Part shown: positions 1 through 31,600 of the stretch, piece after piece | How the letters are laid out: each line of letters starts with the position of its first letter | How positions within the stretch are numbered: the first letter of the stretch is position 1 | Virus record (IMG/VR): IMGVR_UViG_3300021962_000407 | Coordinates: 1-31,600 of that record | Reading direction: 5' to 3' (one strand) | Origin: a virus | Length of the DNA stretch: 31,600 nucleotides | Translations under genes and position numbers: made by a program | The notes under the pieces: generated by a model | What the model was told of the DNA's origin: nothing | The model's input: the letters and a program-made list of their open reading frames with translations, nothing else | The model's database searches: none

Positions 1-119
1 CCTTCCTCCTTACCCTTAACTCCACACTATAGAGGCGCACCTTCCCCTACCACTCCACGCTGTACTTAATCTGCCCCTGTGGGATATCATAGAGCCTTCG
101 GTAATTGATGGAGAGGTAC
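1..119. repeat. Left terminal inverted copy of 23805-23923
   Basis: Read base by base, positions 1-119 are the exact reverse complement of 23805-23923. The match breaks at 120, where this copy reads a and the other would require c. The copied stretch covers the last 23 codons and stop of the large terminase gene (here on the minus strand at 47-118) plus 46 bases downstream. The copy is therefore a gene fragment, not a functional terminase. Together with the right-end copy it implies a second, inverted copy of the terminase/early junction, or a chimeric contig end. Confidence 0.95.
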
Positions 120-335
120 ATGCGTGATTGGTTAGCTTGGTATGAAGATATGTCGCACTGTGTAATGAATACAGACGGCTACCACAATTTTATTCCCTAT
201 AACTTTGTTTTGAGCCAGTATACAAATCAAGCAACAGGATTGGTTTGTTCCCATTGCTTGCAATTAGTCGAAATGAAAGATGTTCAAGAATGCAATAGTC
301 AACTTAGCTCTTTAGATACTTCTGATAATGTTTAA
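120..335 (+). CDS. Uncertain small ORF next to the left repeat junction
   Basis: A 71-residue frame starts with ATG exactly at the first base after the inverted repeat. An in-frame TTG at 105 lies inside the repeat. The product contains a CSHC motif near its middle and is rich in W, Y and N, with no family I recognise. It has no good ribosome binding site and its last 30 bases overlap the end of the lysozyme-like gene on the other strand. If the left end is a chimera, this could be the 3' part of a larger gene cut at 119; it could equally be a chance ORF. Confidence 0.25.
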   Translation: MRDWLAWYEDMSHCVMNTDGYHNFIPYNFVLSQYTNQATGLVCSHCLQLVEMKDVQECNSQLSSLDTSDNV

Positions 336-5375: not shown

Positions 5376-5657
5376 ATGGCTTTTAATGACAACAGATGGA
5401 CTAGACAAACTCTAGCTTTCAACTCTGGCGCAGTAACCGTTGATGGCCCAGCTATCGAAAACGGCCCTGCTTTATTCACTTACGCTAGTGCAACTGATAA
5501 CGCTGCTGCAATTGCTGCTGCTAATTATTTTGCTCCAGCAGTTTATGATTTAGCAGTTGGCGACATTATCATGACTATCGGAAGCGATGCTAATGCTACA
5601 TTAGTAGTTGCAACTGTAGACCGTGAATTAGCTACTGTAACAACAGCTGCATACTAA
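5376..5657 (+). CDS. Small head protein, possible decoration/cement
   Basis: 93 residues, small and beta-rich in appearance, rich in A, T, V and D with few basic residues. The C-terminal half (YDLAVGDIIM, then ATLVVATVDRELATVTTA) looks like a compact beta-barrel. Short proteins of this type immediately after the coat gene are often capsid decoration or cement proteins, so I propose that role by position and composition. AAGGGG lies 9 bases before the start, 15 bases after the capsid stop. Confidence 0.6.
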   Translation: MAFNDNRWTRQTLAFNSGAVTVDGPAIENGPALFTYASATDNAAAIAAANYFAPAVYDLAVGDIIMTIGSDANATLVVATVDRELATVTTAAY

Positions 5658-5678
5658 GAGGAACAAGCATGGCTTTAA

Positions 5679-6278
5679 CTAGCCATGCTTATCCAAATAT
5701 TTTGCGGCTTTATTTAGTAAAGTTATTGAGTCATTTGCCATGCCAATCAAAACATTGCAATTATGACAAAGCAGTCCTCTAACTTTATTAGTTTTATGGT
5801 TATGATCAACATTGAATGAATTTCTTTTAATTTTTCTTCTTCGATTAATTATTAAAAGATAATCATCGATATGAATGTTACATATTTCGCAACAATGTTT
5901 TTGTGATATTAGTTTTTCATTATATTCGTTAAGACTAATACCATAAACGCATTTTAATAAGCGGTTCTTCCGCTTGTTTAATTGCTCAATTCTTTTAATT
6001 TTGGCTTTTTCTGGGTCATATAAAGAATTAATGTAATTTTTAGTACAATACTTACATAATGGATGTTTTTTATTTTTTACCTTGTGAAAGTATACTTGGT
6101 CAAAATTTAACAACCCATGGGTATTACAACGCTTGAAAGCCCATAAAGGCAGTAATTCTTTATAAGCTTTAACTTTATATCTTGAGCGTTCGTTAATATG
6201 GTATCGACAATAACCGTAAGATTTATTATGGTTAATATATTTAGGTAGATCACAAAATGGTACATTACAGTAGGTCAT
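5679..6278 (-). CDS. Endonuclease VII-type homing endonuclease
   Basis: 199 residues on the strand opposite the virion genes. The C-terminal domain (about 120-195) has the recombination endonuclease VII pattern: C130/C133, DH at 158-159, H161, then RGLLCHNCN with C171/C174 and N175, i.e. a zinc ribbon plus His-Me finger site. The N-terminus carries a separate CX4C (C4, C9) and CX2H (C24, H27) knuckle shared with two other nucleases in the window. The frame is open further upstream, but ATG 6278 starts at the first conserved Cys and keeps the gene off tail tube A. It is more AT-rich than its neighbours. Such free-standing genes usually act as selfish homing elements. Confidence 0.8.
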   Translation of the reverse strand: MTYCNVPFCDLPKYINHNKSYGYCRYHINERSRYKVKAYKELLPLWAFKRCNTHGLLNFDQVYFHKVKNKKHPLCKYCTKNYINSLYDPEKAKIKRIEQLNKRKNRLLKCVYGISLNEYNEKLISQKHCCEICNIHIDDYLLIINRRRKIKRNSFNVDHNHKTNKVRGLLCHNCNVLIGMANDSITLLNKAAKYLDKHG

Positions 6279-6306
6279 ACATAAACTCAATTTTAGTAGG
6301 TGCCAT

Positions 6307-6897
6307 ATGATAACAAAAACTTCCATTATTAGTAATGCTCTTGCGCAGTTGGGCCATGCCCCTGTTGTATCTTTGATTAACCAAGATGAACTTGTTGTCG
6401 CTGCTGAACAAGCTTTTGATATGCTACTGCCTAGCAAACTTGCAGAAGGTAACTGGCGCTTTGCAACCAAGATTGAACAATTATCTCAATTAGTAGAAGT
6501 TGTTCCTCCACCTTACAAAAATGCATTTCAATTACCAAGTGGCTGGCTTAAAGTTCTTAAAGTCTATCCTAATGTTTATGATTGGAATATATTCAATAAC
6601 GACAGAATATATACATTTCAAGAAGGGCCATGGTGGATGGAGTTTATATTTCAGCCAGATGTGTCTCGATTACCAGCGCATTTTGTTAACTACTTTGTTT
6701 ATGAAATTGCAGCTTATTTGTGTATAAGTAATGCTGAAAAAACAGACTATTACCAAGCAATTAAAGCTGAGGCTATTAGACAACAAGGCATGGCATTGGC
6801 AATAGATTGCCAAAACCATCCGCAATTTACTCAGGTCGATTTTCCAGTATTAGGCAACCGTTATATTGGCGGTGTATATCCAAACTCAATTAACTAA
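6307..6897 (+). CDS. Tail tubular protein A (gp11-like adaptor)
   Basis: 196 residues, the usual size for the T7 gp11 type. The N-terminus (SIISNALAQLGHAPVVSL) and the downstream FDMLLPSKLAEGNWRFA are characteristic of this family, as is a late FVNYFVYEIAAYL segment. The protein forms the ring linking the connector to the tail nozzle. A TAGTAGG sequence precedes the ATG. It is separated from the head gene at 5376 by the inverted nuclease gene; in related phages the two late genes would be expected to be closer. Confidence 0.85.
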   Translation: MITKTSIISNALAQLGHAPVVSLINQDELVVAAEQAFDMLLPSKLAEGNWRFATKIEQLSQLVEVVPPPYKNAFQLPSGWLKVLKVYPNVYDWNIFNNDRIYTFQEGPWWMEFIFQPDVSRLPAHFVNYFVYEIAAYLCISNAEKTDYYQAIKAEAIRQQGMALAIDCQNHPQFTQVDFPVLGNRYIGGVYPNSIN

Positions 6898-19753: not shown

Positions 19754-20398
19754 ATGAAAGCCTGTAAAGTTTCTGGATGCAACAAAATTCCAACAAAAGG
19801 AAATAAAGAGTGTCCAATGCATAAATATAGAATTTGGCGGTATGGTAGTTATGACTTGCCGCCAAAAATAGAAAAAAAGAAAAAAGATTTGCCAATTGGT
19901 GTAGAAAAAATTTGTAGAATACATGGTTTTTTAACAAAAGATGATGTCAGTTACGTGCAAATTACAAAAAATCGTCATAAAAATCCTTATGATGCAATAT
20001 ACGTAAAATGCAAAAAATGTCATGTAGAAAATGTTAGAAATTACCAAAGAAAAAATCCAACAAAAATTCTTGAATGGGAAGAAAAAAGAAAAAATTCTGA
20101 ACACAGAAAAAAAACAATTAGAGTTAGGAATTTAAAAAAATTTGGTTTAACTTTAGAAAAGTATGAAGAGAAATTATTAAATCAAAATGGCTTGTGCGCA
20201 ATTTGCAAACAACCAGAAACTGCCATTAGAAATAATAAATTAAAAAATTTAGCAGTTGACCATTGTCATAAAAAAAATCAAATTCGAGGCTTGCTGTGCG
20301 GAAAATGCAATCCTTTGATTGGTTATGCAAACGATGATATTAATATTTTATATAACGCTATAGAATATTTACAACAATATAAAATTGCAGACGTATAG
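19754..20398 (+). CDS. Endonuclease VII-type homing endonuclease
   Basis: 214 residues. The N-terminus has the CX4C (C4, C9) and CX2H (C20, H23) knuckle followed by a YGSYDLP motif. A middle segment with CRIHGFL and VKCKKC resembles the nuclease at 5679. The C-terminal domain has LCAICKQ (C148, C151), DH at 169-170, H172, and RGLLCGKCN (C182, C185, N186), the endonuclease VII zinc and His-Me site. It is very lysine-rich and AT-rich compared with flanking genes. No ribosome binding site is seen before ATG 19754. Most likely a free-standing homing endonuclease between late genes. Confidence 0.82.
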   Translation: MKACKVSGCNKIPTKGNKECPMHKYRIWRYGSYDLPPKIEKKKKDLPIGVEKICRIHGFLTKDDVSYVQITKNRHKNPYDAIYVKCKKCHVENVRNYQRKNPTKILEWEEKRKNSEHRKKTIRVRNLKKFGLTLEKYEEKLLNQNGLCAICKQPETAIRNNKLKNLAVDHCHKKNQIRGLLCGKCNPLIGYANDDINILYNAIEYLQQYKIADV

Positions 20399-22203: not shown

Positions 22204-22570
22204 ACCAGAAGACAAAACACAAATGGCAATTTTAGATTATTGCAGATTGCGTTATCCTGAATTAGCAGAGTGTGTAATAAAAATTCATAATGAGGGGCAA
22301 AGAAGCCGTTCAACCAATAAAATACTACCAAGGCTTGGATTACGCCCGGGTGCTTCTGACTTGTTTTTTGCGTTCCCAACATCTAAATACCACGGTTTGT
22401 TTATCGAGGTGAAGAAAGATGGATGGAAGCCAACAGCAGCCCAAAAAGAACATTTAGCCAGGCAACAGGCTTTTATAGACCAAATGAAATCAAGAGGCTA
22501 CATGGCGGAGTGGGGAATTGGTACTGACTTAGGTATTGCGATTATTGATGCGTACATGAGGACGGTTTAA
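22160..22570 (+). CDS. VRR-NUC domain nuclease
   Basis: 136 residues from GTG 22160, with AAGGA about 10 bases upstream; an in-frame ATG at 22127 would add 11 residues. The body follows the VRR-NUC (PD-(D/E)XK) pattern: an E in LAECVIKIHNEG, then GLRPGASDLFF (the G.pD motif) and FIEVKKDGWKPTAAQ with the E-x-K pair. Such stand-alone nucleases in phages may process branched or concatemeric DNA before packaging. Its stop overlaps the terminase start (TAATG), which supports a packaging link. Confidence 0.8.
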   Translation: MQLRAKSTVKKFHLKPEDKTQMAILDYCRLRYPELAECVIKIHNEGQRSRSTNKILPRLGLRPGASDLFFAFPTSKYHGLFIEVKKDGWKPTAAQKEHLARQQAFIDQMKSRGYMAEWGIGTDLGIAIIDAYMRTV

Positions 22571-23877
22571 TGTATATAAGACTGCCCTCAATTAATCCAT
22601 TCCCGCACCAAGAAAGAATGTTTAAAGCCGTAAATGAAGGTAAGCATATTTTAGCGGTAATACATCGCAGGGCAGGGAAAGATATTGCCTGCCTTCAAAT
22701 GTGGCTTCTAAGAGCTCTACAGAGGGTTGGGACGCATGTTTATTTGTTCCCTCTCTTGCAGCAGGCTCGTAGTGTTATTTGGTCTGGCATGGACTTTGAT
22801 GGTAAACCATTCTTGAGTAATATCCCTGAATGTTTAATTGAATACAAAAATGATGCACGAATGGAAATCAGGCTGATTAACGGTAGCCGTTTGGTATTGG
22901 CTGGAAGTAACAACCTCACTGGTTTAATCGGAACTAACCCTGTTACAATTATTTACTCTGAGTTTGCGTTACACAATCCAAATGCTAGGCAATACTTAAA
23001 CCCTATTATTGTGCAGAATAAAGGCATTGAGATTATACAAAGCACGCCTAGAGGAAAGAATCACCTCTGGGAATTATTTGAAACGGTAAAAGATAATCCC
23101 AAGTACCATGTTGAACATCTTGGTATCGATAAGACCTCTAAAGCTGACGGAAGTCCTATCATTACACAAGAGGACATTGAAGATATTAAAAAGCGCGGTA
23201 TGTCGGATGAAATGATTGCTCAAGAGTTTTATTGTCAATTCAATGTAGGTAACCAAGGCGCTTACTTTACTAGAGAAATGCATGATATGGATATTGAGGG
23301 CAGGTTATTGCCAATTAGAGCTAATCCAAACTTGCCGTTGCACAGCGTTTGGGATTTAGGGGGTACAGATGCGACAGCAGGATGGTTGTTTCAGGTTGAA
23401 GGTAATTACATTAATTTATTGGCTCTGTTACACGACACTGGTCATGGTCTTAAGTATTTTCTTGACTGGGCTAACAAGCTTAAAGAACAATGGGGTTGCC
23501 AGTGGGGTAATCACTTTGGACCGCATGATATTAGCCAAAAACATCAAGGATGGGAACAAGCTGAGTCCAGACTTATGCAAGCAAGACGAGCAGGATGGAA
23601 TTTTCAGATTACGCCTAAACTTAGTTTAGAAGATGGCATTGAAGCGCTAAGGTGTATGCTGCCAAAAGTTCGCATTAACACGACAGAATGCAACCTTGGT
23701 ATCAGGGCATTACGTGAGTATCAAAGAGAGTACGACGAGGCTAACGCTTGCTTTGCAACGAAGCCACTGCATAACTGGGCATCACATATAGTCGATAGTT
23801 TGCGGTACCTCTCCATCAATTACCGAAGGCTCTATGATATCCCACAGGGGCAGATTAAGTACAGCGTGGAGTGGTAG
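22570..23877 (+). CDS. Terminase large subunit
   Basis: 435 residues: an ATPase followed by an RNase H-like nuclease, which pumps DNA through the connector and cuts concatemers. Walker A is HRRAGKD at 32-38. The Walker B-like strand is VTIIYSE at 125-131, with Ser in place of the usual Asp before Glu131. The coupling motif is STPRGK near 158-163. The nuclease half has WDLGGTDAT (D262, D268) and a late acidic residue in HIVDSLRYL (D409). Full length for this family. It is translationally coupled to the VRR-NUC gene and is the last rightward gene before the non-coding region. Its final 23 codons are repeated in inverted form at the window's left end. Confidence 0.92.
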   Translation: MYIRLPSINPFPHQERMFKAVNEGKHILAVIHRRAGKDIACLQMWLLRALQRVGTHVYLFPLLQQARSVIWSGMDFDGKPFLSNIPECLIEYKNDARMEIRLINGSRLVLAGSNNLTGLIGTNPVTIIYSEFALHNPNARQYLNPIIVQNKGIEIIQSTPRGKNHLWELFETVKDNPKYHVEHLGIDKTSKADGSPIITQEDIEDIKKRGMSDEMIAQEFYCQFNVGNQGAYFTREMHDMDIEGRLLPIRANPNLPLHSVWDLGGTDATAGWLFQVEGNYINLLALLHDTGHGLKYFLDWANKLKEQWGCQWGNHFGPHDISQKHQGWEQAESRLMQARRAGWNFQITPKLSLEDGIEALRCMLPKVRINTTECNLGIRALREYQREYDEANACFATKPLHNWASHIVDSLRYLSINYRRLYDIPQGQIKYSVEW

Positions 23878-23923
23878 GGGAAGGTGCGCCTCTATAGTGT
23901 GGAGTTAAGGGTAAGGAGGAAGG
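23805..23923. repeat. Internal partner of the left terminal inverted repeat
   Basis: Exact reverse complement of 1-119. It covers the 3' end of the terminase gene and 46 bases beyond. This copy sits in an intact gene and intact context, so it appears to be the original. Confidence 0.95.
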
Positions 23924-24237
23924 GGTAATGGGGGGGTATTCCTCAATTAACAGTTACTTGCTTAATTACTGCGCAGCCTAAAAGGGGACTGGCAAGGCGA
24001 TGCTCAGACTTCTGAGACTCCAGACTCCCACTCACCCGCGAAAAACCTGAACCCTCCCTATCTCCCCACGGATTTTTTAGTTTTTGGTTTTCGGGAATAT
24101 ATATTTCAAGGCTCCATCCCTACTATACTCCTCCTATTGACATCTGTCACATAACTGATATAATGGCGTCTGATTATTTGCGGGAGGATGGTCATAAGTT
24201 CCATTTTGGAACATAGCCACACATAAGGGGGGGAGGG
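23878..24237. other. Non-coding terminase/early junction, candidate packaging terminus
   Basis: About 360 bases without a credible ORF. The first half is visibly richer in G and C than the genome, with purine-rich and pyrimidine-rich runs, a hairpin CTCAG-ACTT-CTGAG (24003-24016) and a neighbouring short direct repeat GACTCC. The second half is AT-rich and ends in a consensus promoter. In T7-like phages the terminal repeat lies between the last late genes and the early promoters, so this is where the genome end or packaging site would be expected. That is inference from position; read-end data would be needed to prove it. Confidence 0.5.
24137..24164 (+). promoter_or_regulatory. Consensus sigma70 early promoter
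   Basis: TTGACA (24137-24142) and TATAAT (24159-24164) are both perfect, separated by 16 bases, with a TGA just before the -10 box (extended -10). This is the strongest promoter in the window. It drives rightward transcription into 24238 onward and is read by host polymerase, consistent with an early promoter. Confidence 0.85.
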
Positions 24238-24291
24238 ATGCTAACAATCCAACGCAAAAAATGGTGGGAGAAATTTCAAGATGGTGAGCGT
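24215..24291. repeat. Internal partner of the right terminal inverted repeat
   Basis: Exact reverse complement of 31524-31600 over 77 bases. It contains the ribosome binding site and first 18 codons of the gene at 24238. Confidence 0.95.
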
Positions 24292-24540
24292 CCAGAATTG
24301 TTAGAAGCATATGAAAAAATCAGGGATAGTGAGCTAGAAAGAATGAGCGCCCAAGTTGAAAAGCTGGCAGAATATGCTTTGAATCTTGAGCGCAAGCTTA
24401 AATGCAGCGACCATGAATTAACCTTATGTTCTGTATGCAACCAACCAGTAACAAGCCCACACTACGAATGTGCACACGATGAAAGTAATAGTTTAATAAA
24501 TCAAGCTTTAAGGGCTTGGAAAACAGGAGAAAAGAAATGA
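24238..24540 (+). CDS. Early protein with Cys/His cluster
   Basis: 100 residues. The first 55 are charged and helical, with a coiled-coil-like segment (ERMSAQVEKLAEYALNLERKL). Then comes a Cys/His cluster: C74 and C77 in LCSVCNQP, followed by H86, C89 and H91 in PHYECAH, which could bind one zinc ion. The purine-rich GGGGGGGAGGG directly before the ATG gives a strong ribosome binding site. First gene after the consensus promoter, so probably expressed immediately after infection. No family is recognised; host-takeover or regulatory function is a guess. Confidence 0.65.
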   Translation: MLTIQRKKWWEKFQDGERPELLEAYEKIRDSELERMSAQVEKLAEYALNLERKLKCSDHELTLCSVCNQPVTSPHYECAHDESNSLINQALRAWKTGEKK

Positions 24541-24668
24541 AAAAGATAATTTTAATTAGTTTGTTATTAGTTGGTGTGGCTCATGCAAGCCAACATTGTA
24601 AAACTTATTGTAGTGAAGACGCATTTGGTAACGGTCAAACATGCGATACTCAATGTTATGACTATTAA
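24537..24668 (+). CDS. Small secreted cysteine-rich protein
   Basis: 43 residues: a clean signal peptide (KKIILISLLLVGVAHA, predicted cut before Ser18) followed by only 26 residues containing four cysteines as CX3C-X10-CX3C (C21, C25, C36, C40). This spacing fits a helical hairpin closed by two disulfides in the periplasm. AGGAG precedes ATG 24537, which overlaps the previous stop (ATGA). I know no matching family. Early expression and export suggest action at the cell envelope, for example against superinfection, but this is inference. Confidence 0.65.
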   Translation: MKKIILISLLLVGVAHASQHCKTYCSEDAFGNGQTCDTQCYDY

Positions 24669-24709
24669 ATTTTAAAAATAAATATATAATTTGGGTTTTA
24701 GGTGAAAAC

Positions 24710-24955
24710 ATGATAGCTGAAATCCCATTTGATATATTTAGAGACAAACGTTTAGGGCGTACTGATTACAAGGCCTACGCCTTTTTTTATTTAAATCAAG
24801 GCAAGCCAATTCCCACGGGCATATCAATATCAAAAGAAATTGGTTCAAATCCTGACGCAACATATGATGCAATTAGCAGACTTGAGGGTTTTGGTTATAT
24901 TGAAAAGGTAACAGTTGGTAGTGAAAAACACGTCAAGTTATTAAAGCATCATTGA
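24710..24955 (+). CDS. Small winged-helix DNA-binding protein
   Basis: 81 residues. After an N-terminal strand and helix (IPFDIFRDKRLGRTDYKAYAFF), a helix-turn-helix stretch reads GISISKEIGSNPDATYDAISRLEGFGYIEK, followed by a short beta wing. This matches small HTH_36-type modules found in phage and plasmid replication or regulatory proteins. AGGTG precedes ATG 24710. Just downstream lies a promoter with a palindrome at its start site, an obvious candidate target, though binding is not shown. Confidence 0.65.
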   Translation: MIAEIPFDIFRDKRLGRTDYKAYAFFYLNQGKPIPTGISISKEIGSNPDATYDAISRLEGFGYIEKVTVGSEKHVKLLKHH

Positions 24956-24980
24956 CAGTACGCTAAAACTATAGTACTAT
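24952..24980 (+). promoter_or_regulatory. Strong sigma70 promoter before a terminator
   Basis: TTGACA (24952-24957) and TACTAT (24975-24980) are 17 bases apart: a perfect -35 box, optimal spacing and a -10 box with one mismatch. It overlaps the last codon and stop of the winged-helix gene. Transcription would start near 24987, within a palindrome, and meet a terminator about 50 bases later. Confidence 0.8.
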
Positions 24981-24985
24981 TAAAC

Positions 24986-24998
24986 AGTGGTTACCACT
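24986..24998. promoter_or_regulatory. Palindromic operator candidate at the start site
   Basis: AGTGGTTACCACT is a perfect inverted repeat (6 + 1 + 6) centred a few bases downstream of the promoter's -10 box. The half-site ACCACT is partly repeated directly after it (TCCACT). Its position would let a bound repressor block transcription initiation. Confidence 0.5.
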
Positions 24999-25012
24999 TC
25001 CACTTCGATAAG

Positions 25013-25040
25013 GCCTTCTTGATTTTAAGAGGGCTTTTTT
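25013..25040 (+). terminator. Intrinsic terminator 50 bases after a promoter
   Basis: GCCTTCTT pairs with AAGAGGGC (one G-T pair) across a 6-base loop, and six T residues follow. It is a convincing Rho-independent terminator. No start codon lies between the promoter start site near 24987 and this element. Confidence 0.8.
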
Positions 25041-25061
25041 ACAGGAGAAAAGATTAAAAAG

Positions 25062-25115
25062 TTTTCCACAGAATTTGTTAGTAAACCTGTGGAAATGCTA
25101 TTAATTTAATCCACA
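25062..25115. promoter_or_regulatory. Cluster of DnaA-box-like sites
   Basis: Three 9-mers resembling the DnaA box (TTWTNCACA) lie within 54 bases: TTTTCCACA at 25062-25070, a full match to the relaxed consensus; ATTTCCACA on the minus strand at 25088-25096, one mismatch; TAATCCACA at 25107-25115, one mismatch. The surroundings are AT-rich. They lie in the leader between the terminator and the SSB gene, so they may act in replication or in control of SSB. Confidence 0.5.
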
Positions 25116-25174
25116 AAATGCGGAATCTCTTGATTAAATAACTATAATAATAACTCATACAAGGAGTATAAAAA

Positions 25175-25606
25175 ATGAAAACATTGGCTAGGGTTATCCT
25201 ATTGGGAATTGTCGGTAAAGACCCGGAACTTAAAGTCACAAAGTCAGGTATGCAGATTGCTACGTTTCCAGTTGCAACAATGGTTAAAAAGAAAGATCCA
25301 AACGGCGCATATTTTGAATCAACACTTTGGCACAATCTAGTATCGTTTGGAAAGTTAGCCGAGAATATCGAAAAAACCGTTAAAAAAGGCTCTAAAATCT
25401 ATGTTGACGGCACTATTGATTATCAAGAGTACGTTGATAGCGCTGGCAGCCAAAAACTCTCTACAAAGATTATAATCAATGATTTTAGTGTAATCAGTAA
25501 AAGTGAATATCAGCAATTAAGAGATAGCCTGGAATCCGTTGGTAACAAAAAGAAAGCTGACTTTGATAAACCCTTGTTTGAAACTGATGATGGCATTCCA
25601 TTTTAA
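25175..25606 (+). CDS. ssb: Single-stranded DNA-binding protein (SSB)
   Basis: 143 residues. An OB-fold SSB with the usual start (LARVILLGIVGKDPELK), VATMVKKKD, the LWHNLVSFGKLAENI block and KGSKIYVDGTIDYQEYVD. The C-terminus ends DDGIPF, the acidic tip that recruits replication and repair proteins. It coats single-stranded DNA during phage replication and recombination. AAGGAG lies 8 bases before ATG 25175. It heads a short operon with two small membrane proteins. Confidence 0.92.
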   Translation: MKTLARVILLGIVGKDPELKVTKSGMQIATFPVATMVKKKDPNGAYFESTLWHNLVSFGKLAENIEKTVKKGSKIYVDGTIDYQEYVDSAGSQKLSTKIIINDFSVISKSEYQQLRDSLESVGNKKKADFDKPLFETDDGIPF

Positions 25607-25614
25607 GGATTAAT

Positions 25615-25779
25615 ATGAGCTATTTATTGATTATTATTACAAACGTAGTGTCTGGGTATTTCTTATTTCAAATCGTTAAGAATGGCAAAGAACGTTTTCG
25701 TGAACAAGATGAGCGTATGAAACTACTTGAGAATGAATTTTTATCACTCTACAAAAAAATGAAGTTAAAAAATGATTGA
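25615..25779 (+). CDS. Small single-pass membrane protein 1
   Basis: 54 residues: a hydrophobic N-terminal segment (YLLIIITNVVSGYFLFQIV, about 3-21) then a charged helix with KERFREQDERMKLLENEF that could form a coiled coil. AAGGAT lies just upstream. Its stop overlaps the next gene. The topology resembles small phage membrane proteins such as spanin-like or holin-like factors, but no family is recognised. Confidence 0.6.
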   Translation: MSYLLIIITNVVSGYFLFQIVKNGKERFREQDERMKLLENEFLSLYKKMKLKND

Positions 25780-25984
25780 TTTATACCTGATTTATGGGGG
25801 TATGCTGCTATTGACTATCATGCAGATAGCGGCGTATTGGGAAATTAACAAACTATGGAGAGATAAAAAAAATGTGCGTGGCACAAAGAATAAGATATGC
25901 AAATTTCGACTTTTTCGACATGGCAATGAATGCAAAACAAGTAAGCAAAAGAAAGATAAAGCATCAAACAAAGTCGGGTCTTAG
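25772..25984 (+). CDS. Small membrane protein 2 with basic tail
   Basis: 70 residues: a hydrophobic segment (LYLIYGGMLLLTIMQIAAYW, about 4-23) and a long lysine-rich tail ending KKDKASNKVGS. It overlaps the preceding small membrane protein by 8 bases. An alternative frame at 25872-26078 overlaps its second half; its N-terminal ATG has no clear ribosome binding site, so I prefer this frame, though the true C-terminus could involve a frameshift. Confidence 0.5.
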   Translation: MIDLYLIYGGMLLLTIMQIAAYWEINKLWRDKKNVRGTKNKICKFRLFRHGNECKTSKQKKDKASNKVGS

Positions 25985-26080
25985 CACCTACTTTTGTTTT
26001 ATCTTTAGCGATTATTCCCGGCTAACATTTAAACAAACGTCAAGTGAGTTTTTCTTGATGAGCTGGTTTTACACTTAAGT

Positions 26081-26100
26081 AAAAGCCCCTTTTCAGGGGC
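26081..26100 (-). terminator. Terminator for the leftward initiator operon
   Basis: GCCCC and GGGGC form a hairpin (26085-26100) with a six-base loop. On the minus strand it is followed by TTTT (26081-26084), giving a short T-run. It lies about 50 bases beyond the end of the leftward initiator gene, between convergent transcripts. A second bulged stem (CACGtgCGG with CCGCGTG, about 26122-26143) lies between it and the gene end. Confidence 0.6.
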
Positions 26101-26152
26101 AGGGTGTAAATGCTGAAGTTCACACGTGCGGATAAACCGCGTGGTGAGTATA

Positions 26153-27127
26153 TCAGGTTTGATAAATTTTTTTAAGCGCATCTTTCATTTGTGTAATTGA
26201 ATTTTTGCTTGTTTCCGTATGAACAACCTTTTTTAAATGCTGAAACGCTAAAGCGTCTTTAGAATGCTCTTGGCGTTTTTTTTCTTGTACCTGCTTGTCT
26301 GATATTCCCATATGATATAAATCGCTTGTAGGTGCTTTATTTTTCGTTTTAGAGGCATTCCTATTGTGAATCCATTCTGCTTTTAATCCTTGCCACGAAT
26401 TTATGATAGCTTCATCGATGCAATCTTGTGCCACATAACCCATATCTACTGCTTTTTGAATTTCTTTTAAAATCAATTTCCATGCTTGTTCCGTCAATGG
26501 CTTCTTGATCGCCTTACGCATATCCGAGTAACCCTTCAATGTCTCATCATTAAAACCGAACGGGTTGTGATCGTAAATAGAAAATTTGGTGGTGCGCGGT
26601 GTGTGACTACACACACTATTAATTTCTTTATTTATTATTTCTTTATTTATGTCTCTCTCCAGAGATACCCCCCCTCTCTCTGTAGAGATACCCCCCTCTC
26701 TCTGTAGAGATACCCCTAGGTGACATGAATGTCCCTCCGGTATAATTTTTGTACTATTTATGTGAATAACTTTTTCTTCCGACATGTTGTCTTCAATTTC
26801 AACATGATTCAAGGCAGGTACAATATATCTTTTGTTATTTTTATATATTCGCTTCATTACATTATGTTTTTCAAAAAATTGAAAAGCTTTATTAATTCTT
26901 GAGTCTGATTCAATTCCAGTTCTTTCTTTAATTACTGAATTGCTCAGAAAACAACTTTTGCCCTTATTCCAAAATTGAAATATGGTTTCGAAGAAATCAA
27001 GAAATGTTAAAGTCATGCCTTTAAGTTGTCGGATATATCGAGGGATTATGTAAAATGTATCTTGATAATTTATAGTAACTTCTTGATTATTTGATATAAC
27101 TTTTTTGTTGCTATTTTGACCATTCAT
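26153..27127 (-). CDS. Replication initiator protein (O-like)
   Basis: 324 residues. The N-terminal 110 form a winged-helix-like domain (YIIPRYIRQLKGMTLTFLDF, then NSVIKERTGIESDSRINKAFQFFEK), as in phage O-type and plasmid Rep initiators. A low-complexity linker (about 135-175) follows, then a C-terminal domain (DETLKGYSDMRKAIKKPL onward) resembling helicase-loading partners. The linker DNA holds three iterons and an AT-rich repeat, matching the lambda O arrangement with the origin inside the gene. GAAGGAA precedes ATG 27127. The enzyme itself would bind iterons and load the host helicase; this is inferred. Confidence 0.7.
   Translation of the reverse strand: MNGQNSNKKVISNNQEVTINYQDTFYIIPRYIRQLKGMTLTFLDFFETIFQFWNKGKSCFLSNSVIKERTGIESDSRINKAFQFFEKHNVMKRIYKNNKRYIVPALNHVEIEDNMSEEKVIHINSTKIIPEGHSCHLGVSLQREGGISTERGGVSLERDINKEIINKEINSVCSHTPRTTKFSIYDHNPFGFNDETLKGYSDMRKAIKKPLTEQAWKLILKEIQKAVDMGYVAQDCIDEAIINSWQGLKAEWIHNRNASKTKNKAPTSDLYHMGISDKQVQEKKRQEHSKDALAFQHLKKVVHTETSKNSITQMKDALKKIYQT
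26599..26716. other. Candidate replication origin inside the initiator gene
   Basis: Three copies of a 22-23 base unit, CTCTCTCYRYAGAGATACCCC, have their AGAGATA cores at 26661, 26684 and 26706. Each contains the inverted element CTCTC..AGAGA. Beside them is a 15-base AT-rich tandem duplication (26622-26651, ATTTCTTTATTTAT twice), then a perfect 7-base inverted repeat GTGTGTG-ACTA-CACACAC (26599-26616). Iterons next to an AT-rich unwinding element within an initiator gene is the lambda origin layout. Confidence 0.65.
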
Positions 27128-27137
27128 TGGTAAAATT

Positions 27138-27356
27138 TCCTTCGGTTTTGATTATTGTTTTTATTAACCGTTTCGGTCAATTCCTTTCGGTTTTGATTGT
27201 TTTTGTTATTAATCTTATTGGTCAATTCCTTTTGGTATTTGGTTGTAATTTAACCATTACAGCTAAATTCCTTCGGTTTTTATTATTATTTTTGACTTCA
27301 ACTATTAAATCCTTCTGGGTTTTAATTTTTGTTTTGATTGTGGTAATGAACTCCTT
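27138..27356. repeat. Six degenerate repeats of about 42 bp upstream of the initiator
   Basis: The core TCCTT (within AATTCCTTTCGG-like blocks) recurs at 27138, 27182, 27227, 27269, 27310 and 27352, with spacings of 44, 45, 42, 41 and 42 bases. The units also share a preceding TTATTAA...GGTCAATT-type stretch in the first copies and T-rich linkers. On the minus strand each reads like a ribosome binding site (AAGGAATT), the one nearest the gene being the real one. The spacing is about four DNA turns, so bound proteins would sit on one face. Could be initiator-binding, copy-control or leader repeats. Confidence 0.7.
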
Positions 27357-27402
27357 AGTGGTTAATGATTAAATGTTATTGTTATTATTGTTTCTAAAGT
27401 CC

Positions 27403-27440
27403 AACTACGTAGTTTTTAGCACGCCCGACGGCAATCGGGC
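27403..27440. promoter_or_regulatory. Palindrome and hairpin in the initiator leader
   Basis: A perfect 12-base palindrome AACTACGTAGTT (27403-27414) is followed by a 6-base stem GCCCGA/TCGGGC with loop CGGCAA (27423-27440). They lie between two leftward genes. No proper T-run follows on either strand, so an attenuator, operator or processing site is as likely as a terminator. Confidence 0.4.
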
Positions 27441-27455
27441 AATGCATGGATGTTT

Positions 27456-27659
27456 TTAAATCAAATCTTTACTATGCAAATCACGGCCAATGTTAGCAAT
27501 TTCTATCGCTACCATTTGAACTGTTTTTTGCCACATTTTATCTTCGGGATGACAGTATACCCCCATGAAATCTTTGATTTGTTGTTTAATAAGAGGATGT
27601 AAAATAGACTTAATCTTTTGTTCCATGTCCTGAATCTCCTTTAATGTAATTACTTCCAT
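27456..27659 (-). CDS. Hypothetical small protein
   Basis: 67 residues, with a helical charged N-terminal half (EVITLKEIQDMEQKIKSIL) and a C-terminal helix (VQMVAIEIANIGRDLHSKDLI). I recognise no family. The start ATG 27659 overlaps the preceding gene's stop, so it is coupled in a leftward operon of small early genes between the Cro-like gene and the initiator. Confidence 0.6.
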   Translation of the reverse strand: MEVITLKEIQDMEQKIKSILHPLIKQQIKDFMGVYCHPEDKMWQKTVQMVAIEIANIGRDLHSKDLI

Positions 27660-27856
27660 TATTCAGACTCCACCACGTTAGTATTAATTAATGCTTGAGC
27701 TATCTCATCCTGAAAATAAGTGCCCTTTAACTCGACAACTATTTTATCAGGATTAAATATTTTATGCATGAGGTATGTTGATGATGTGATTGTAAAAAGA
27801 GTAAGGCTAATTAGAAAAGCCACGCCACATATTTTAAGTATGTCGTTATGGTTCAT
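27659..27856 (-). CDS. Small membrane protein
   Basis: 65 residues from ATG 27856, chosen because GGAG lies 8 bases upstream; an earlier in-frame start at 27871 has none. A clear hydrophobic segment (ILKICGVAFLISLTLFTITSS, about 6-26) is followed by a polar C-terminal region (KIVVELKGTYFQDEIAQAL). One membrane pass with the tail outside or inside cannot be decided. It overlaps both neighbours. Confidence 0.6.
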   Translation of the reverse strand: MNHNDILKICGVAFLISLTLFTITSSTYLMHKIFNPDKIVVELKGTYFQDEIAQALINTNVVESE

Positions 27857-28007
27857 TGAGTAACTCCGCAATTATAATTGTTATGATGTCTTGCGCGAAA
27901 TGCTTAGTGATTTCATCGATTTTATAACTGCATATACCAGCACTCAAAAGGTTGGCTTTTATGCAGTTATTTAATTTAATTTCAAACTCCGTTTGTTTCT
28001 TGTCCAT
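27846..28007 (-). CDS. Small hypothetical protein
   Basis: 53 residues, starting MDKKQTEFEIKLNN and ending with a hydrophobic-acidic helix (DIITIIIAELLNEP). AAGGA lies 6 bases before ATG 28007, and the gene starts 9 bases after the Cro-like stop and overlaps the next gene by 11 bases. The fit into a compact leftward operon supports it. No family is recognised. Confidence 0.6.
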   Translation of the reverse strand: MDKKQTEFEIKLNNCIKANLLSAGICSYKIDEITKHFAQDIITIIIAELLNEP

Positions 28008-28015
28008 GTTATTCC

Positions 28016-28231
28016 TTAGTTTGGGATTCCCATCGGTTTATCATAAGCCGGGTCATGTTGAAAATCAGCTTTCAAAACATCATTGGTTACTTCTTGAATA
28101 TGTAATTGATGCTTCATCGGGATACCACCCTTCTTCCTCCAATCTCTAAGGGTTGTAATACTATAGCCTGTAGCTTTTTGCACATCATTCCATACCTTAT
28201 AATAGTGCACCCATACTTCTTCGATCGTCAT
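28016..28231 (-). CDS. Cro-like repressor
   Basis: 71 residues. The segment VWNDVQKATGYSITTLRDWRKKGGIPMKHQLHIQEVT follows the pattern of small Cro/YdaS-type DNA-binding proteins: a short helix-turn-helix (about 15-35), then GGIP and a helix leading to the vT..vl.ad sequence (here VTNDVLKADF). First gene of the leftward operon and divergent from the recombination operon, with a perfect inverted repeat between them. AAGGAAA precedes ATG 28231. It probably controls one or both divergent transcripts. No CI-type partner was found. Confidence 0.75.
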   Translation of the reverse strand: MTIEEVWVHYYKVWNDVQKATGYSITTLRDWRKKGGIPMKHQLHIQEVTNDVLKADFQHDPAYDKPMGIPN

Positions 28232-28247
28232 ATATAATTTCCTTTGT

Positions 28248-28275
28248 TAAAATGAAGCTTTATGTTATCATTTTA
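28248..28275. promoter_or_regulatory. Operator candidate in the divergent Cro/exonuclease gap
   Basis: A perfect 8-base inverted repeat, TAAAATGA (28248-28255) and TCATTTTA (28268-28275), has a 12-base spacer. It lies midway between the Cro-like and exonuclease starts. An outer pair, CCTTTGTT (28241-28248) and AACAAAGG (28285-28292), is largely explained by the two ribosome binding sites. A weak promoter TTGTTA-16-TATCAT (28244-28271) overlaps it. Confidence 0.5.
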
Positions 28276-28304
28276 CTGTTAAAAAACAAAGGAGAAAATA
28301 ATAA

Positions 28305-29099
28305 ATGATTGTAGATATTTCAAACGAAGAGTATCATGCGAGCGAAGGTTATTCAAAAAGTGCTTTAATGCTTTTTAAGCAATCACCGATTAAGTTTTAT
28401 TACGAATACGTTTTAGACAACAAAGAAGAAAAACAAAGTGATGATATGCTTCTTGGGACGCTAGTGCATACAATGACACTAGAGCCAGAGAACATTGCTC
28501 AATATATCCCCAGACCTAAAATCAACAGACAAACAAAAGCAGGTAAGGAAGAGTTTGCGAAGTTCAACGAATACGCAACAGAAAACAAACTAACTGCTAT
28601 TGATATCGAGGTTTACGAACAAGCTAAAGCAATGAGTGATTGCGTATTAAGCAACTCCATCGCTAAAAGCATTATCGACAAGGCAGCCAAAGAAAAGTCA
28701 TTGTACTGGTTTGATGAATTGACTGGACTTACTTTTAAAAGTAGACCGGACTTACTTGATGCTAAAATATCAGGCGACCTAAAAACATGCCGTGACATTA
28801 CTAATATTGGCTTTAGCCGTGCTTGTGTTGACCATGGATACTATTTGCAAGCTGCCATGTGTAAATTAGCAATGCAAGCCAACGACCTAGACTTTGAGCG
28901 TTTTGTGTTTATTTGTGTGAGCAAGTCTGAGCCCTACCAAGTAGTTAATTTTGTTCTTGACGAACAAGCCATAGAGTATGGCATTAATCAATTTAAATGG
29001 TGGTCGATGAAATTAGCCGAAGAATTAGAAAAAAATGATTGGCTAAGACCTCGTGTTGAAACTTTAAGTGTACCTAAATGGGTGGAGTGGAACCAATGA
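28305..29099 (+). CDS. RecE-like exonuclease (PD-(D/E)XK)
   Basis: 264 residues. The start (DISNEEYHASEGYSKSALMLFKQSPIKFYYEYV) and the LLGTLVHTMTLEP block are typical of the exodeoxyribonuclease VIII/RecE-type phage nucleases. The active site reads FKSRPDLLDAKISGDLKTC, i.e. a PD plus D-L-K, followed by a late YLQAAMCKLAM helix with the conserved Gln. The enzyme would resect double-stranded ends to feed a strand-annealing partner. AAGGAG precedes ATG 28305, and the gene overlaps the next one (ATGA). Confidence 0.88.
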   Translation: MIVDISNEEYHASEGYSKSALMLFKQSPIKFYYEYVLDNKEEKQSDDMLLGTLVHTMTLEPENIAQYIPRPKINRQTKAGKEEFAKFNEYATENKLTAIDIEVYEQAKAMSDCVLSNSIAKSIIDKAAKEKSLYWFDELTGLTFKSRPDLLDAKISGDLKTCRDITNIGFSRACVDHGYYLQAAMCKLAMQANDLDFERFVFICVSKSEPYQVVNFVLDEQAIEYGINQFKWWSMKLAEELEKNDWLRPRVETLSVPKWVEWNQ

Positions 29100-29341
29100 A
29101 CGATTTAGAAATAATGGATAGACAAGCGAAGTTAATTGAACATCAAAGACGACTGTTTATAAATACTGCTGAACAGTTTAAAAAAGACGTTGTTTATTTA
29201 AAAGGTTGCGTACGTGTGTTGATGGAAATGTGTGATGATACTGACCCAATTATTAACGGTTTACCACACGTTATAGACCACATTTTGGAAATGGAATCTA
29301 TGTTAAATAATTTTGATGCAAGGATGAAAGATTATGACTGA
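29096..29341 (+). CDS. Hypothetical protein in the recombination operon
   Basis: 81 residues, helical, acidic C-terminus, containing a coiled-coil-like stretch (MDRQAKLIEHQRRLFINTAEQF) and a double Cys spacing (KGCVRVLMEMCDD). I use ATG 29096, which overlaps the exonuclease stop and has GGAG upstream; an in-frame GTG at 29078 is less likely. It overlaps the next small ORF. No family is recognised. Confidence 0.65.
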   Translation: MNDLEIMDRQAKLIEHQRRLFINTAEQFKKDVVYLKGCVRVLMEMCDDTDPIINGLPHVIDHILEMESMLNNFDARMKDYD

Positions 29342-29447
29342 AATTAAAACATACTCACCCGAATACACTAACGGCGAATTTGGACTAGGATTTGAAAGTG
29401 GCTCTACTGTACAACAACAACGAGATACAAACTATGGCTATTGGTGA
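29334..29447 (+). CDS. Short ORF ending at the third homing nuclease
   Basis: 37 residues: MTEIKTYSPEYTNGEFGLG, then ESGSTVQQQRDTNYGYW. It overlaps the previous gene by ATGAC-type coupling and runs 14 bases into the nuclease gene in another frame. Its Gln-rich end resembles the Gln-rich start of the recombination protein downstream (QNNNQQQALSSAN). It could be a genuine small gene or the displaced 5' end of the gene at 29999, cut by insertion of the nuclease. I cannot decide. Confidence 0.4.
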   Translation: MTEIKTYSPEYTNGEFGLGFESGSTVQQQRDTNYGYW

Positions 29448-30006
29448 TGTTTGCAAAATTAAAACTTGTAAAAATTTAGTTACGCAAAATGGCGCAATTT
29501 GCAACCACCACAGGCACTTAAAGTCATATTATGGTTCATACGATGCTATACCAGAAAGTAAATTATCAAGAATTGAATTTTTCAATGCAAATATAAAAAA
29601 AAGTGAAGTTTCAGATTGTATTTTATGGTGCGGAAGAATTGATAAACTTGGTTATGGGATGATTTGGAATGGACAAAAAGCTGTTAAAGCACATAGGTTT
29701 TCTTGGGAACTTGTAAATGGGAAAATACCTGATGGGATTAATTGTTTACATAAATGTGACATTAGAAATTGTGTTAATGTGGAACATCTATTTCTTGGAA
29801 GTCAGCAAGACAATATAAAAGACATGGTTAATAAAAAAAGGAATGTTTTAGGCTGGCAAAAATTAAATCCATTGCAAGTTAAATTAATAAAAAAACTGAT
29901 TTCTTGTGGCTGTCATGATGTTGATATTGCAACCGCATTCAATGTTCATAGAGACACAATAAGATGCATAAGAAACGGTAAAAACTGGAGCCATATAAGT
30001 GAATAG
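29434..30006 (+). CDS. HNH_3-type homing endonuclease
   Basis: 190 residues. The N-terminus carries the CX4C (C7, C12) and Cys/His (C23, H25/H26) knuckle plus YGSYDAIP, very like the nuclease at 19754. The nuclease domain is of the HNH_3 type: KAHRFSWELVNGKIPDG, then CLHKCDIRNCVNVEHLFLGS, with H87, H106 and N115 as likely active-site or structural residues. A C-terminal helix-turn-helix (about 145-185, with DVDIATAFNVHRDTIRCIRNG) probably reads the target DNA. It lies between the short ORF at 29334 and the recombination gene, overlapping both. ATG 29434 has only a weak site. No group I intron space exists around it. Confidence 0.82.
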   Translation: MAIGDVCKIKTCKNLVTQNGAICNHHRHLKSYYGSYDAIPESKLSRIEFFNANIKKSEVSDCILWCGRIDKLGYGMIWNGQKAVKAHRFSWELVNGKIPDGINCLHKCDIRNCVNVEHLFLGSQQDNIKDMVNKKRNVLGWQKLNPLQVKLIKKLISCGCHDVDIATAFNVHRDTIRCIRNGKNWSHISE

Positions 30007-30874
30007 TATATTAGATGAAAAAACAGGTGCAAGAAATTATCCGAACAGCCATACATATGGTGATTTTGATTTGGTAATGCAGAATAATAATCAACAACAA
30101 GCTTTATCATCGGCGAATACGCAACAAGAAAAGGGCGTAGCTGAAATACAAGCTTCTTACGTGATAGCAAAGAAGTTTCCCAGAAACGAAAACCAATGCT
30201 ATATGCAGATAATCGAAAGCTGCAAACGTCATACTTTAAGTGAGCAAGCTTTATACGCATATCCTAGAGGTGGTCAAATGGTTACAGGGCCCAGTATTAG
30301 ACTTGCGGAAACATTGGCTAGGCATTGGGGAAACTGCAAAGTAGGCATTGAAATACTTTCTCAAACTGATGATAAAACAGAGGCTAAAGCTTTTGCTCTA
30401 GACCTTGAAAACAATTACTTGGTTGAATCTTGTTTTACTGTTAAACATCAGCGCACAACAAAAAAGGGTGTAAATCGTTTATCAGATGAGCGAGATATTA
30501 GAGAACTAATTGCTAATATTGGATCACGTCATTTAAGAGGTTGCATTCTTAGAGTAATACCAGGCGACATCACAGAATCAGCAATCGAACAATGTAAGCG
30601 TACACTTGAGACTAGCGAAATCCCAATGACAGAACAAATTAAACGTTTAGTCATGGCATTTGATGAGATTGGCGTGAAGGTAGAGCACTTAGAGACGCGT
30701 TTAGGGCATAACTTAGATGCTACTATTCCTCAAGAACTTGTGACGCTTAGAAGTATTTACAAGTCGATTAAAGACGGTATGGCGGGGCGTGAAGAATTCT
30801 TCGATGCGTTCAAGAAACAAGAGAAGAAACCAGCCGAGCAAGCTAAATCTGATCTCGAGGAGTTACTCAAATGA
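29999..30874 (+). CDS. Recombination-associated protein, possible annealing protein
   Basis: 291 residues from GTG 29999; ATG 30078 is an alternative start with a slightly better setting. The core matches a widespread phage protein that accompanies RecE-like nucleases: KFPRNENQCYMQIIESCKRHTLSEQALYAYPRGG, then MVTGPSIRLAETLARHWGN, LSDERDIRELIANIGSRHLRGCIL, and VIPGDITESAIEQC. I know it as a family of uncharacterised function near recombination genes; its placement suggests single-strand annealing, which I infer. The C-terminal 90 residues are charged and more variable. Its stop overlaps the next gene (ATGA). The N-terminus may have been altered by the nuclease insertion. Confidence 0.65.
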   Translation: MNSILDEKTGARNYPNSHTYGDFDLVMQNNNQQQALSSANTQQEKGVAEIQASYVIAKKFPRNENQCYMQIIESCKRHTLSEQALYAYPRGGQMVTGPSIRLAETLARHWGNCKVGIEILSQTDDKTEAKAFALDLENNYLVESCFTVKHQRTTKKGVNRLSDERDIRELIANIGSRHLRGCILRVIPGDITESAIEQCKRTLETSEIPMTEQIKRLVMAFDEIGVKVEHLETRLGHNLDATIPQELVTLRSIYKSIKDGMAGREEFFDAFKKQEKKPAEQAKSDLEELLK

Positions 30875-31161
30875 TAGTTGTTAAATTTGATTCAGAGCAT
30901 GACGAGTTCTTACAACCAACATTGCAAAATATTCTTATAAATTTAACTGGGCACCTTAAAAAGTATGAATCTGGATTTGATAAAAATGTAGCTGCCATGG
31001 AAATGGCGGTTAACTTATCTATCGCTTTAATCTTAAATGTGACGGCCACTACTGTTAAGCAAGAAGGTATGGCCGAGGTACTGCAAGATGTTCTTGATGA
31101 AATTGAGGATAACTTTAATAAATTGATTAATGCTGACTTACAACAAGTTACCGTTAATTAA
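30871..31161 (+). CDS. Hypothetical protein ending the recombination operon
   Basis: 96 residues, helical, acidic in the C-terminal third (VLQDVLDEIEDNFNKLI). No recognised domain. The start overlaps the previous stop by ATGA, so it is coupled to the recombination gene. Its stop overlaps the convergent gene on the other strand by 4 bases. Confidence 0.65.
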   Translation: MIVVKFDSEHDEFLQPTLQNILINLTGHLKKYESGFDKNVAAMEMAVNLSIALILNVTATTVKQEGMAEVLQDVLDEIEDNFNKLINADLQQVTVN

Positions 31162-31352
31162 CTAGGAGTTTTGCTAATTTCTGATGGCTCTAATTCAGGT
31201 TTCTTCGGAGATGGATTGGGGTCAACCACATCCTTTTCACTGGTTCGCATACAATTAAAAAAGCACATATACCTTTTAGCATCCGCCCCAACATTAATTG
31301 TCGTGTTGGTTGCTGTATGCGTAACTTTTTCTTTTTTGTTATGCTTATCCAT
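31158..31352 (-). CDS. Hypothetical basic/Pro-rich protein, leftward
   Basis: 64 residues from ATG 31352, which has a GAGGGGG ribosome binding site; an in-frame ATG at 31382 lacks one. The N-terminal half is polar and Lys/Thr-rich (MDKHNKKEKVTHTATN), the middle has MCFFNCMR with two cysteines, and the C-terminal part is Pro/Glu-rich (NPSPKKPELEPSEISKTP). No family is recognised; a membrane or lipoprotein role is not supported because there is no hydrophobic segment. Convergent with the recombination operon. Confidence 0.5.
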   Translation of the reverse strand: MDKHNKKEKVTHTATNTTINVGADAKRYMCFFNCMRTSEKDVVDPNPSPKKPELEPSEISKTPS

Positions 31353-31511
31353 GATTACCCCCTCTGAATTAGTATTACACACCTAATTAATGGAAAGCAA
31401 CGCACCTAACATGTCCACCAACCACAATCCCACCAACACATTCCCTTAACATGTCGTTAGCGTGTGCGCTTAGAACTTCGCCCTAATTTATTGGTAATAA
31501 TTCTCTTTGAT

Positions 31512-31577
31512 TTAAAAAACAAAACGCTCACCATCTTGAAATTTCTCCCACCATTTTTTGCGTTGGATTGTTAGCAT
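31512..31577 (-). pseudogene. Truncated inverted copy of the gene at 24238
   Basis: The inverted repeat carries the ribosome binding site and first 18 codons of the early gene at 24238. Just past the repeat the frame reads F-V-F and stops, giving a 21-residue peptide (MLTIQRKKWWEKFQDGER then FVF). If the repeat extends past the window as inferred, the early promoter would lie just outside and fire leftward into it. Confidence 0.7.
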
Positions 31578-31600
31578 CCCTCCCCCCCTTATGTGTGGCT
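31524..31600. repeat. Right terminal inverted copy of 24215-24291
   Basis: The last 77 bases of the window are the exact reverse complement of 24215-24291. The match ends at 31524, where the flanking DNA diverges. If the window's ends join, this and the left terminal copy would be pieces of a second inverted copy of 23805-24291, with 291 bases missing from the window. Confidence 0.95.

Follow-up and report, generated by a model that had tools for sequence, protein, structure and literature searches.

Two inverted copies of a terL-proximal control region in an uncultured tailed phage lineage and the probable inversion of the early segment between them

The DNA considered here, called the window, is a whole stretch of 31,600 nucleotides with a G + C content of 37%, positions 1 to 31,600 of the virus record IMGVR_UViG_3300021962_000407, which IMG/VR lists as 'linear' and 31,600 bp long. 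By profile matches it belongs to a tailed phage with a T7-like portal or head-tail connector, and it also carries an O-like replication gene, a single-strand DNA-binding protein (SSB) and an exonuclease VIII-like nuclease. Both of its ends are inverted copies of parts of one internal locus at the end of terL, the gene for the large terminase subunit, and the question is whether the phage genome holds a second copy of this locus and what the two copies do to the DNA between them.

On self-comparison, positions 1-119 are the exact reverse complement of 23805-23923, the match stopping precisely at 119, and positions 31524-31600 are that of 24215-24291, the match stopping precisely at 77 bases. 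An exact match of 119 bases is far beyond chance, and the window holds no other inverted match of at least 20 bases; the sole direct match of at least that length is a short tandem at 26669. When the end of the window is joined to its start, the two pieces form an inverted second copy of 23805-24291 minus 291 bases (487 minus 119 minus 77), and the closed circle is 31,891 bp (about 31.9 kb). The preliminary description had read the ends in the same way, as exact inverted copies of one internal locus and, once joined, as a second 487-bp copy lacking 291 bases in a circle of about 31.9 kb; the first statement is confirmed by the matches above and the second also by related contigs described below. 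A direct terminal repeat of the T7 type is absent from the window, the ends of which match internal DNA in inverted orientation only, and the window is not a linear genome with terminal inverted repeats of the phi29 or PRD1 type, as distinct unique sequence lies beyond the repeat on both sides. The features of the window are the following, IRa and IRb being the two copies of the inverted repeat (IR).

1-119 (- strand): late-side part of IRb, an inverted copy of 23805-23923, in which the last 24 codons of terL form a non-functional tail
120-335 (+ strand): first late-segment gene, small, with its ATG at base 120 directly at the IR limit and its ribosome-binding site GGAGAGG (110-116) within the IR, antisense to terL codons
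304-774 (- strand): lysozyme-like gene of family phrog_3108 (function not annotated), the landmark at the left of the late segment
120-23804: late unique segment, 23.7 kb, with structural and packaging genes
22570-23877 (+ strand): terL, large terminase subunit (phrog_2 and phrog_2472), its 3' end being the late-side limit of IRa
23805-24291 (+ strand): IRa, the complete copy of the IR, with the terL tail (23805-23877, the final 24 codons including the stop), an intergenic part (23878-24237) that holds the conserved core and the early promoter, and the start of the first early ORF
23988-24064 (+ strand): conserved core of the IR, about 80 bp, a diverged copy in the window, placed by a gapless stack of 22 contigs
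24137-24164 (+ strand): early-facing sigma70-type promoter, TTGACA-N16-TATAAT, 12/12 consensus matches
24238-24540 (+ strand): first early ORF, 100 aa, its first 18 codons (24238-24291) inside the IR
24292-31523: early unique segment, 7.2 kb
25175-25606 (+ strand): SSB (PF00436, phrog_44)
28305-29099 (+ strand): exonuclease VIII-like nuclease, candidate recombination enzyme (phrog_412, PF12684 and an NF007259 fragment match below the curated cut-off)
29999-30874 (+ strand): conserved early protein phrog_3657, used as an orientation landmark
31512-31577 (- strand): truncated copy of the first early ORF at IRb, MLTIQRKKWWEKFQDGERFVF, then a stop, read from the sequence
31524-31600 (- strand): early-side part of IRb, an inverted copy of 24215-24291; the window assembly lacks the 291 bp that separate it from the late-side part

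Some of these genes deserve separate remarks. The phrog_3657 protein gave no fold match in a profile search or with AlphaFold and Foldseek, so its candidacy as an annealing recombinase was dropped, and a search with its exact peptides found no relatives. Two larger and apparently unrelated contigs, L065 and L066 (45 and 65 kb), encode proteins distantly homologous (44%) to the lysozyme-like one of phrog_3108, and the repeat and the core are absent from the stretches of them that were searched. In addition, the window has three HNH or endonuclease VII-like genes, at 5679-6470 (- strand; PF02945), 19754-20398 (+ strand; similar residues) and 29392-30006 (+ strand; phrog_59). The first of them looks like a mobile endonuclease insertion, because the stretch 5627-6306 fails to align with the relatives L058 and L059.

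Self-comparison showed that, besides the window, 29 related IMG/VR contigs, which derive from 27 metagenomes, have an inverted repeat at the orthologous position: one copy at or after the 3' end of terL and the other, inverted, on the left side of the lysozyme-like gene (phrog_3108) with which the late segment opens. The full plan comprises the late segment, the IR, the early segment and both contig ends re-entering the second copy, and it is seen in seven contigs, namely the window, G007, G024, G037, G048, G058 and G063. Their repeats are 487-1193 bp long, and closure by arithmetic gives genomes of about 31.9-36.4 kb, no single contig holding both copies complete and the middle of IRb in the window being unread. 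The plan is quadripartite: two unique segments are parted by two inverted copies of one sequence. Of the 25 measurable contigs, 20 have the repeat beginning 42-95 nt ahead of the terL stop; it extends deeper into terL in five others (about 100 residues in G018) and begins past terL in five (G005, G009, G016, G047 and G052), G009, with only 25 bp seen, being the weakest case among the relatives. At the other copy a small gene often begins within a few bases of the repeat limit. A tRNA-Gln gene begins exactly at the late-side IR limit in G041 (L147:103-173), and tRNA-like sequence also adjoins the IR limit in G016 and G018, where ARAGORN made no call. The terL match is reported with one in-frame TAA in G048:C1:29-1330 and G056:C1:20548-21801. 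A search for hosts or prophages gave only distant MAG relatives, with 29-35% TerL identity.

Most TerL relatives in IMG/VR have their ends at the terL end or close to it: 44 of 63 terL-bearing contigs end between -450 and +250 nt from the terL stop, and many have a length of 22-25 kb, roughly that of the late segment of the window. Terminal inverted overlaps of 123, 127, 120, 99 or 71 bases occur in such late-only relatives, and from the lengths 123, 127, 99 and 71 it follows that these contig ends come from assembly graphs. Contigs, including the window, end inside the IR because short-read assemblers cannot reliably pass two identical copies. The repeat itself has two different unique flanks on each side, species after species, and therefore represents two real copies. 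Furthermore, G003, with 93% TerL identity to the window, spans the junction that the window lacks and carries the early end, IRb and the late-left region contiguously: its bases 1-1600 run from the early end of the window (equivalent to 31430-31472) through a short variable stretch into an IR with the promoter and the terL tail copy, and then into the late-left region of the window. The contigs L058 and L060 run into the IR from the late segment, and the late-side arrangement of IRb in the window recurs in all three. As they are independent assemblies, they support the ring made by joining the window ends.

The two IR copies within one genome are 97.7-100% identical (0-2.3% different), small differences being found in G003, G005, G011, G047 and G058, whereas the IRs of the closest species are 77-94% identical (6-23% different) and both copies of a genome are about equally distant from those of other species. 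Since identity within genomes exceeds that between the closest species, the copies by this measure evolve in concert, a pattern from which we infer recombination between them.

Most of the relatives' IRs carry an early-facing promoter and a terL tail. The promoter matches the consensus at 12/12 positions in the window, G003, G023 and G037 and at 11/12 in G058; it is weaker elsewhere, and weak or unclear in G007, G024, G048 and G063. Moreover, most contigs that cross the middle of the IR have one core of about 80 bp in a fixed register, with the consensus CTGGtga..ca.tt.agAGAGTTgTGgGgCACCGGAatc followed by C-rich blocks. Its information content reaches 1.0-1.4 bits per base at the heart, falls to about 0.5-0.65 across the C-rich part and is at background outside, and the core is kept gapless between phages whose TerL identity is only about 61-67%. 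A recognisable core is absent in G006, G016, G032, G044 and G052, though these contigs reach well past terL. No real match to it was found in the phage collection, in six phage records or in distant contigs. The core as a known RNA was rejected, since Rfam gave no match at E<=1 and RNAalifold shows constant CTGG/CCGG pairing only. From its gapless spacing, its CTGG...CCGG dyad and its location between the terminase genes, the core looks like a DNA site bound by protein; it probably acts at the DNA level and is a candidate site, most likely for packaging or replication.

The orientation of the early segment was scored by the direction from exonuclease VIII to phrog_3657, with other early genes as guide for G010, G012, G040 and G063, and every call depends on an assembler join across the 487-1193 bp repeat. 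The segment is oriented as in the window in G037, G014, G024, G048, G052, G065, G010 and G040 and opposite to it in G038, G007, G047, G058, G063 and G012. In five species pairs, G058/G048, G007/G048, G014/G058, G047/G052 and G061/G063 (the last from a single 160-bp early match), the early segment is inverted and the late segment collinear at the nucleotide level. G037 and G038, which come from different samples, are 100% identical over 10.8 kb of late DNA and over 4.2 kb of IR plus early DNA, and the same early end passes through the full 817-bp IR to the lysozyme side in G037 and to terL in G038. L190 and L191, 99.95% identical over 9.6 kb, have one late-left region and two different early flanks, which suggests isomers, and a different early module there is also possible; scans for the reciprocal junctions recovered L190 and L191 themselves only. 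Small early genes inside the IR of these two contigs (L190:2364-2914 and L191:4522-4890) are preceded by near-identical ribosome-binding blocks, CTAAGAGAGGACTAGAGATGA, at which the contigs differ by one cassette of about 150 bp, as if recombination had gained or lost small genes. The mixture of orientations matches what free isomerisation would predict; we only infer the physical isomers, because the assemblers may have chosen their paths arbitrarily.

The most probable explanation, held with fair though not full confidence, is a quadripartite phage genome of about 31.9 kb in which recombination between the IRs keeps the copies identical and flips the early segment, both isomers being viable. 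The genome would be circular or circularly permuted, with the late segment of 23.7 kb and the early segment of 7.2 kb parted by the inverted 487-bp control regions IRa and IRb. Homologous recombination between these could proceed via the phage exonuclease VIII-like nuclease and SSB, the genes of which may be parts of such a system, or via host RecA; acting on inverted copies, it would both homogenise them and flip the early segment between them. The flip would be silent, since the inward-facing promoter and the core are the same in both IRs, so that expression and cis signals would be unchanged and both isomers could persist. Among the options listed in the preliminary description, an early segment invertible between inverted repeats with inward-facing early promoters is the best supported, a duplicated physical terminus being a weaker candidate.

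An unlikely alternative, yet the strongest of the rivals, is that the IR and the quadripartite plan are real and the early orientation is fixed in each phage, the mixture being produced by arbitrary assembler paths and rare inversions between species. The dependence of each call on an assembler join would allow this, and the window and four close-clade contigs agree with each other while one differs: G003, G037, L196 and L198 share the orientation of the window and G038 does not. However, the completely identical G037 and G038 are joined both ways, and concerted evolution requires frequent recombination between the copies, which also yields inversion.

It is rather improbable that the IR is a terminal structure, that is, that linear virion DNA ends in the IR (with cos or pac in the core), the early and late parts possibly being packaged separately. 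The sharply conserved core lies between terL and the genes preceding the putative small terminase, and late-only contigs are very common, as such packaging would have it; but contigs such as the window, G003 and G037 run through the IR on both sides, so that, in replicating or pooled DNA at any rate, the early and late parts are connected, and contig ends follow k-mer lengths, not one shared position.

Site-specific inversion, in which a serine invertase of the Gin/Hin type would act on sites inside the repeats as happens with the Mu G and P1 C segments, is more improbable still. Searches covered the window and 15 relatives: tyrosine recombinase (PF00589, a profile that may miss FLP-like enzymes) was found in none of these 16 genomes, and serine recombinase (PF00239) only in G047 and G052, the window and 13 other genomes, including G037 and G038, having none. 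The two exceptions differ in early orientation, as an invertase would predict, and each encodes a serine recombinase of about 190 aa in the early segment (G047:C1:6745-7149 and G052:C1:1981-2385; L089:14161-14727 and L126:1828-2391). Nevertheless, the repeat is long and identical throughout, and the segment holds early genes and not alternative tail fibres. As recombinase families occur in only two of the 15 relatives searched, invertase-driven inversion was rejected and homologous recombination is favoured.

An assembly or amplification artefact, meaning fold-back chimeras or graph tips with no second copy in phage DNA, is scarcely credible even though contig-end overlaps often equal assembler k-mer sizes (123, 127, 99), as relative after relative has the repeat at the orthologous site between different stretches of unique DNA, the junction is continuous in G003 and the IR copies differ in some genomes. 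The preliminary description had favoured an assembly-graph cause on the ground that 119 and 77 are both k-mer sizes in common use; this fits the contig ends and not the repeat, which is real in 29 relatives, and its further option of a one-off fold-back or displacement-amplification chimera is refuted by the same recurrence.

A broader proposal than early-segment inversion by homologous recombination may be put forward tentatively, although it is not expected to hold: throughout the lineage a packaging or replication signal and an early promoter would be kept in two inverted copies that divide the genome, and IR recombination, by flipping or by 2-micron-like fork inversion giving concatemers, would be an obligatory part of the life cycle.

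If the quadripartite reading is true, a plastid- or herpes-like genome plan exists in a lineage of 32-36 kb tailed phages found widely in metagenomes, for which the collections searched contain no close cultured member. The layout would also explain why catalogues enter the relatives as 'linear' and as incomplete late fragments of 22-25 kb, since short reads cannot cross two IR copies and the early parts are likely filed apart. In addition, the core of about 80 bp would be a previously unannotated cis element and a direct target for studies of packaging or replication.

Among known phages, Alteromonas phage ZP6, Pelagibacter phage HTVC010P, Methylophilales phage MEP301 and the environmental phage MW202510 share 30-37% TerL identity and/or T7-like portal, head and tail genes with the window, and they have no inverted repeat of at least 30 bp and no core; the layout is absent from all six phage records examined. 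In ZP6, MW202510 and HTVC010P terL is situated near the portal gene, whereas here it lies at the far end of the late segment. Phages Mu (G segment) and P1 (C segment) have segments between inverted repeats, several hundred bases long in P1, where a serine invertase switches tail-fibre genes; in the window the segment concerned is the early region, and no gene for a serine invertase was found. In halovirus phiH an invertible L-region of about 11 kb has the insertion sequence ISH1.8 at one end or at both, and it can be released as a plasmid (PMC6210493). It is the nearest precedent among tailed viruses found in a literature search that lay mostly outside subscription papers. Both are tailed viruses with a segment that inverts, or here probably inverts, between flanking repeats, but the flanks in phiH are insertion sequences and the repeat here is a native control region conserved across the lineage. 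Plastids, the L and S components of herpesviruses and the yeast 2-micron plasmid are quadripartite genomes with large inverted repeats. Unlike the 2-micron plasmid, the window shows no dedicated recombinase such as FLP, and its isomers are putative. With all three systems it shares two unique segments and two inverted copies that are kept identical, and probably orientation isomers too; what differs is that the plan occurs here in a tailed bacterial virus of 32-36 kb, with a short repeat of 0.5-1.2 kb that carries an early promoter and the conserved core.
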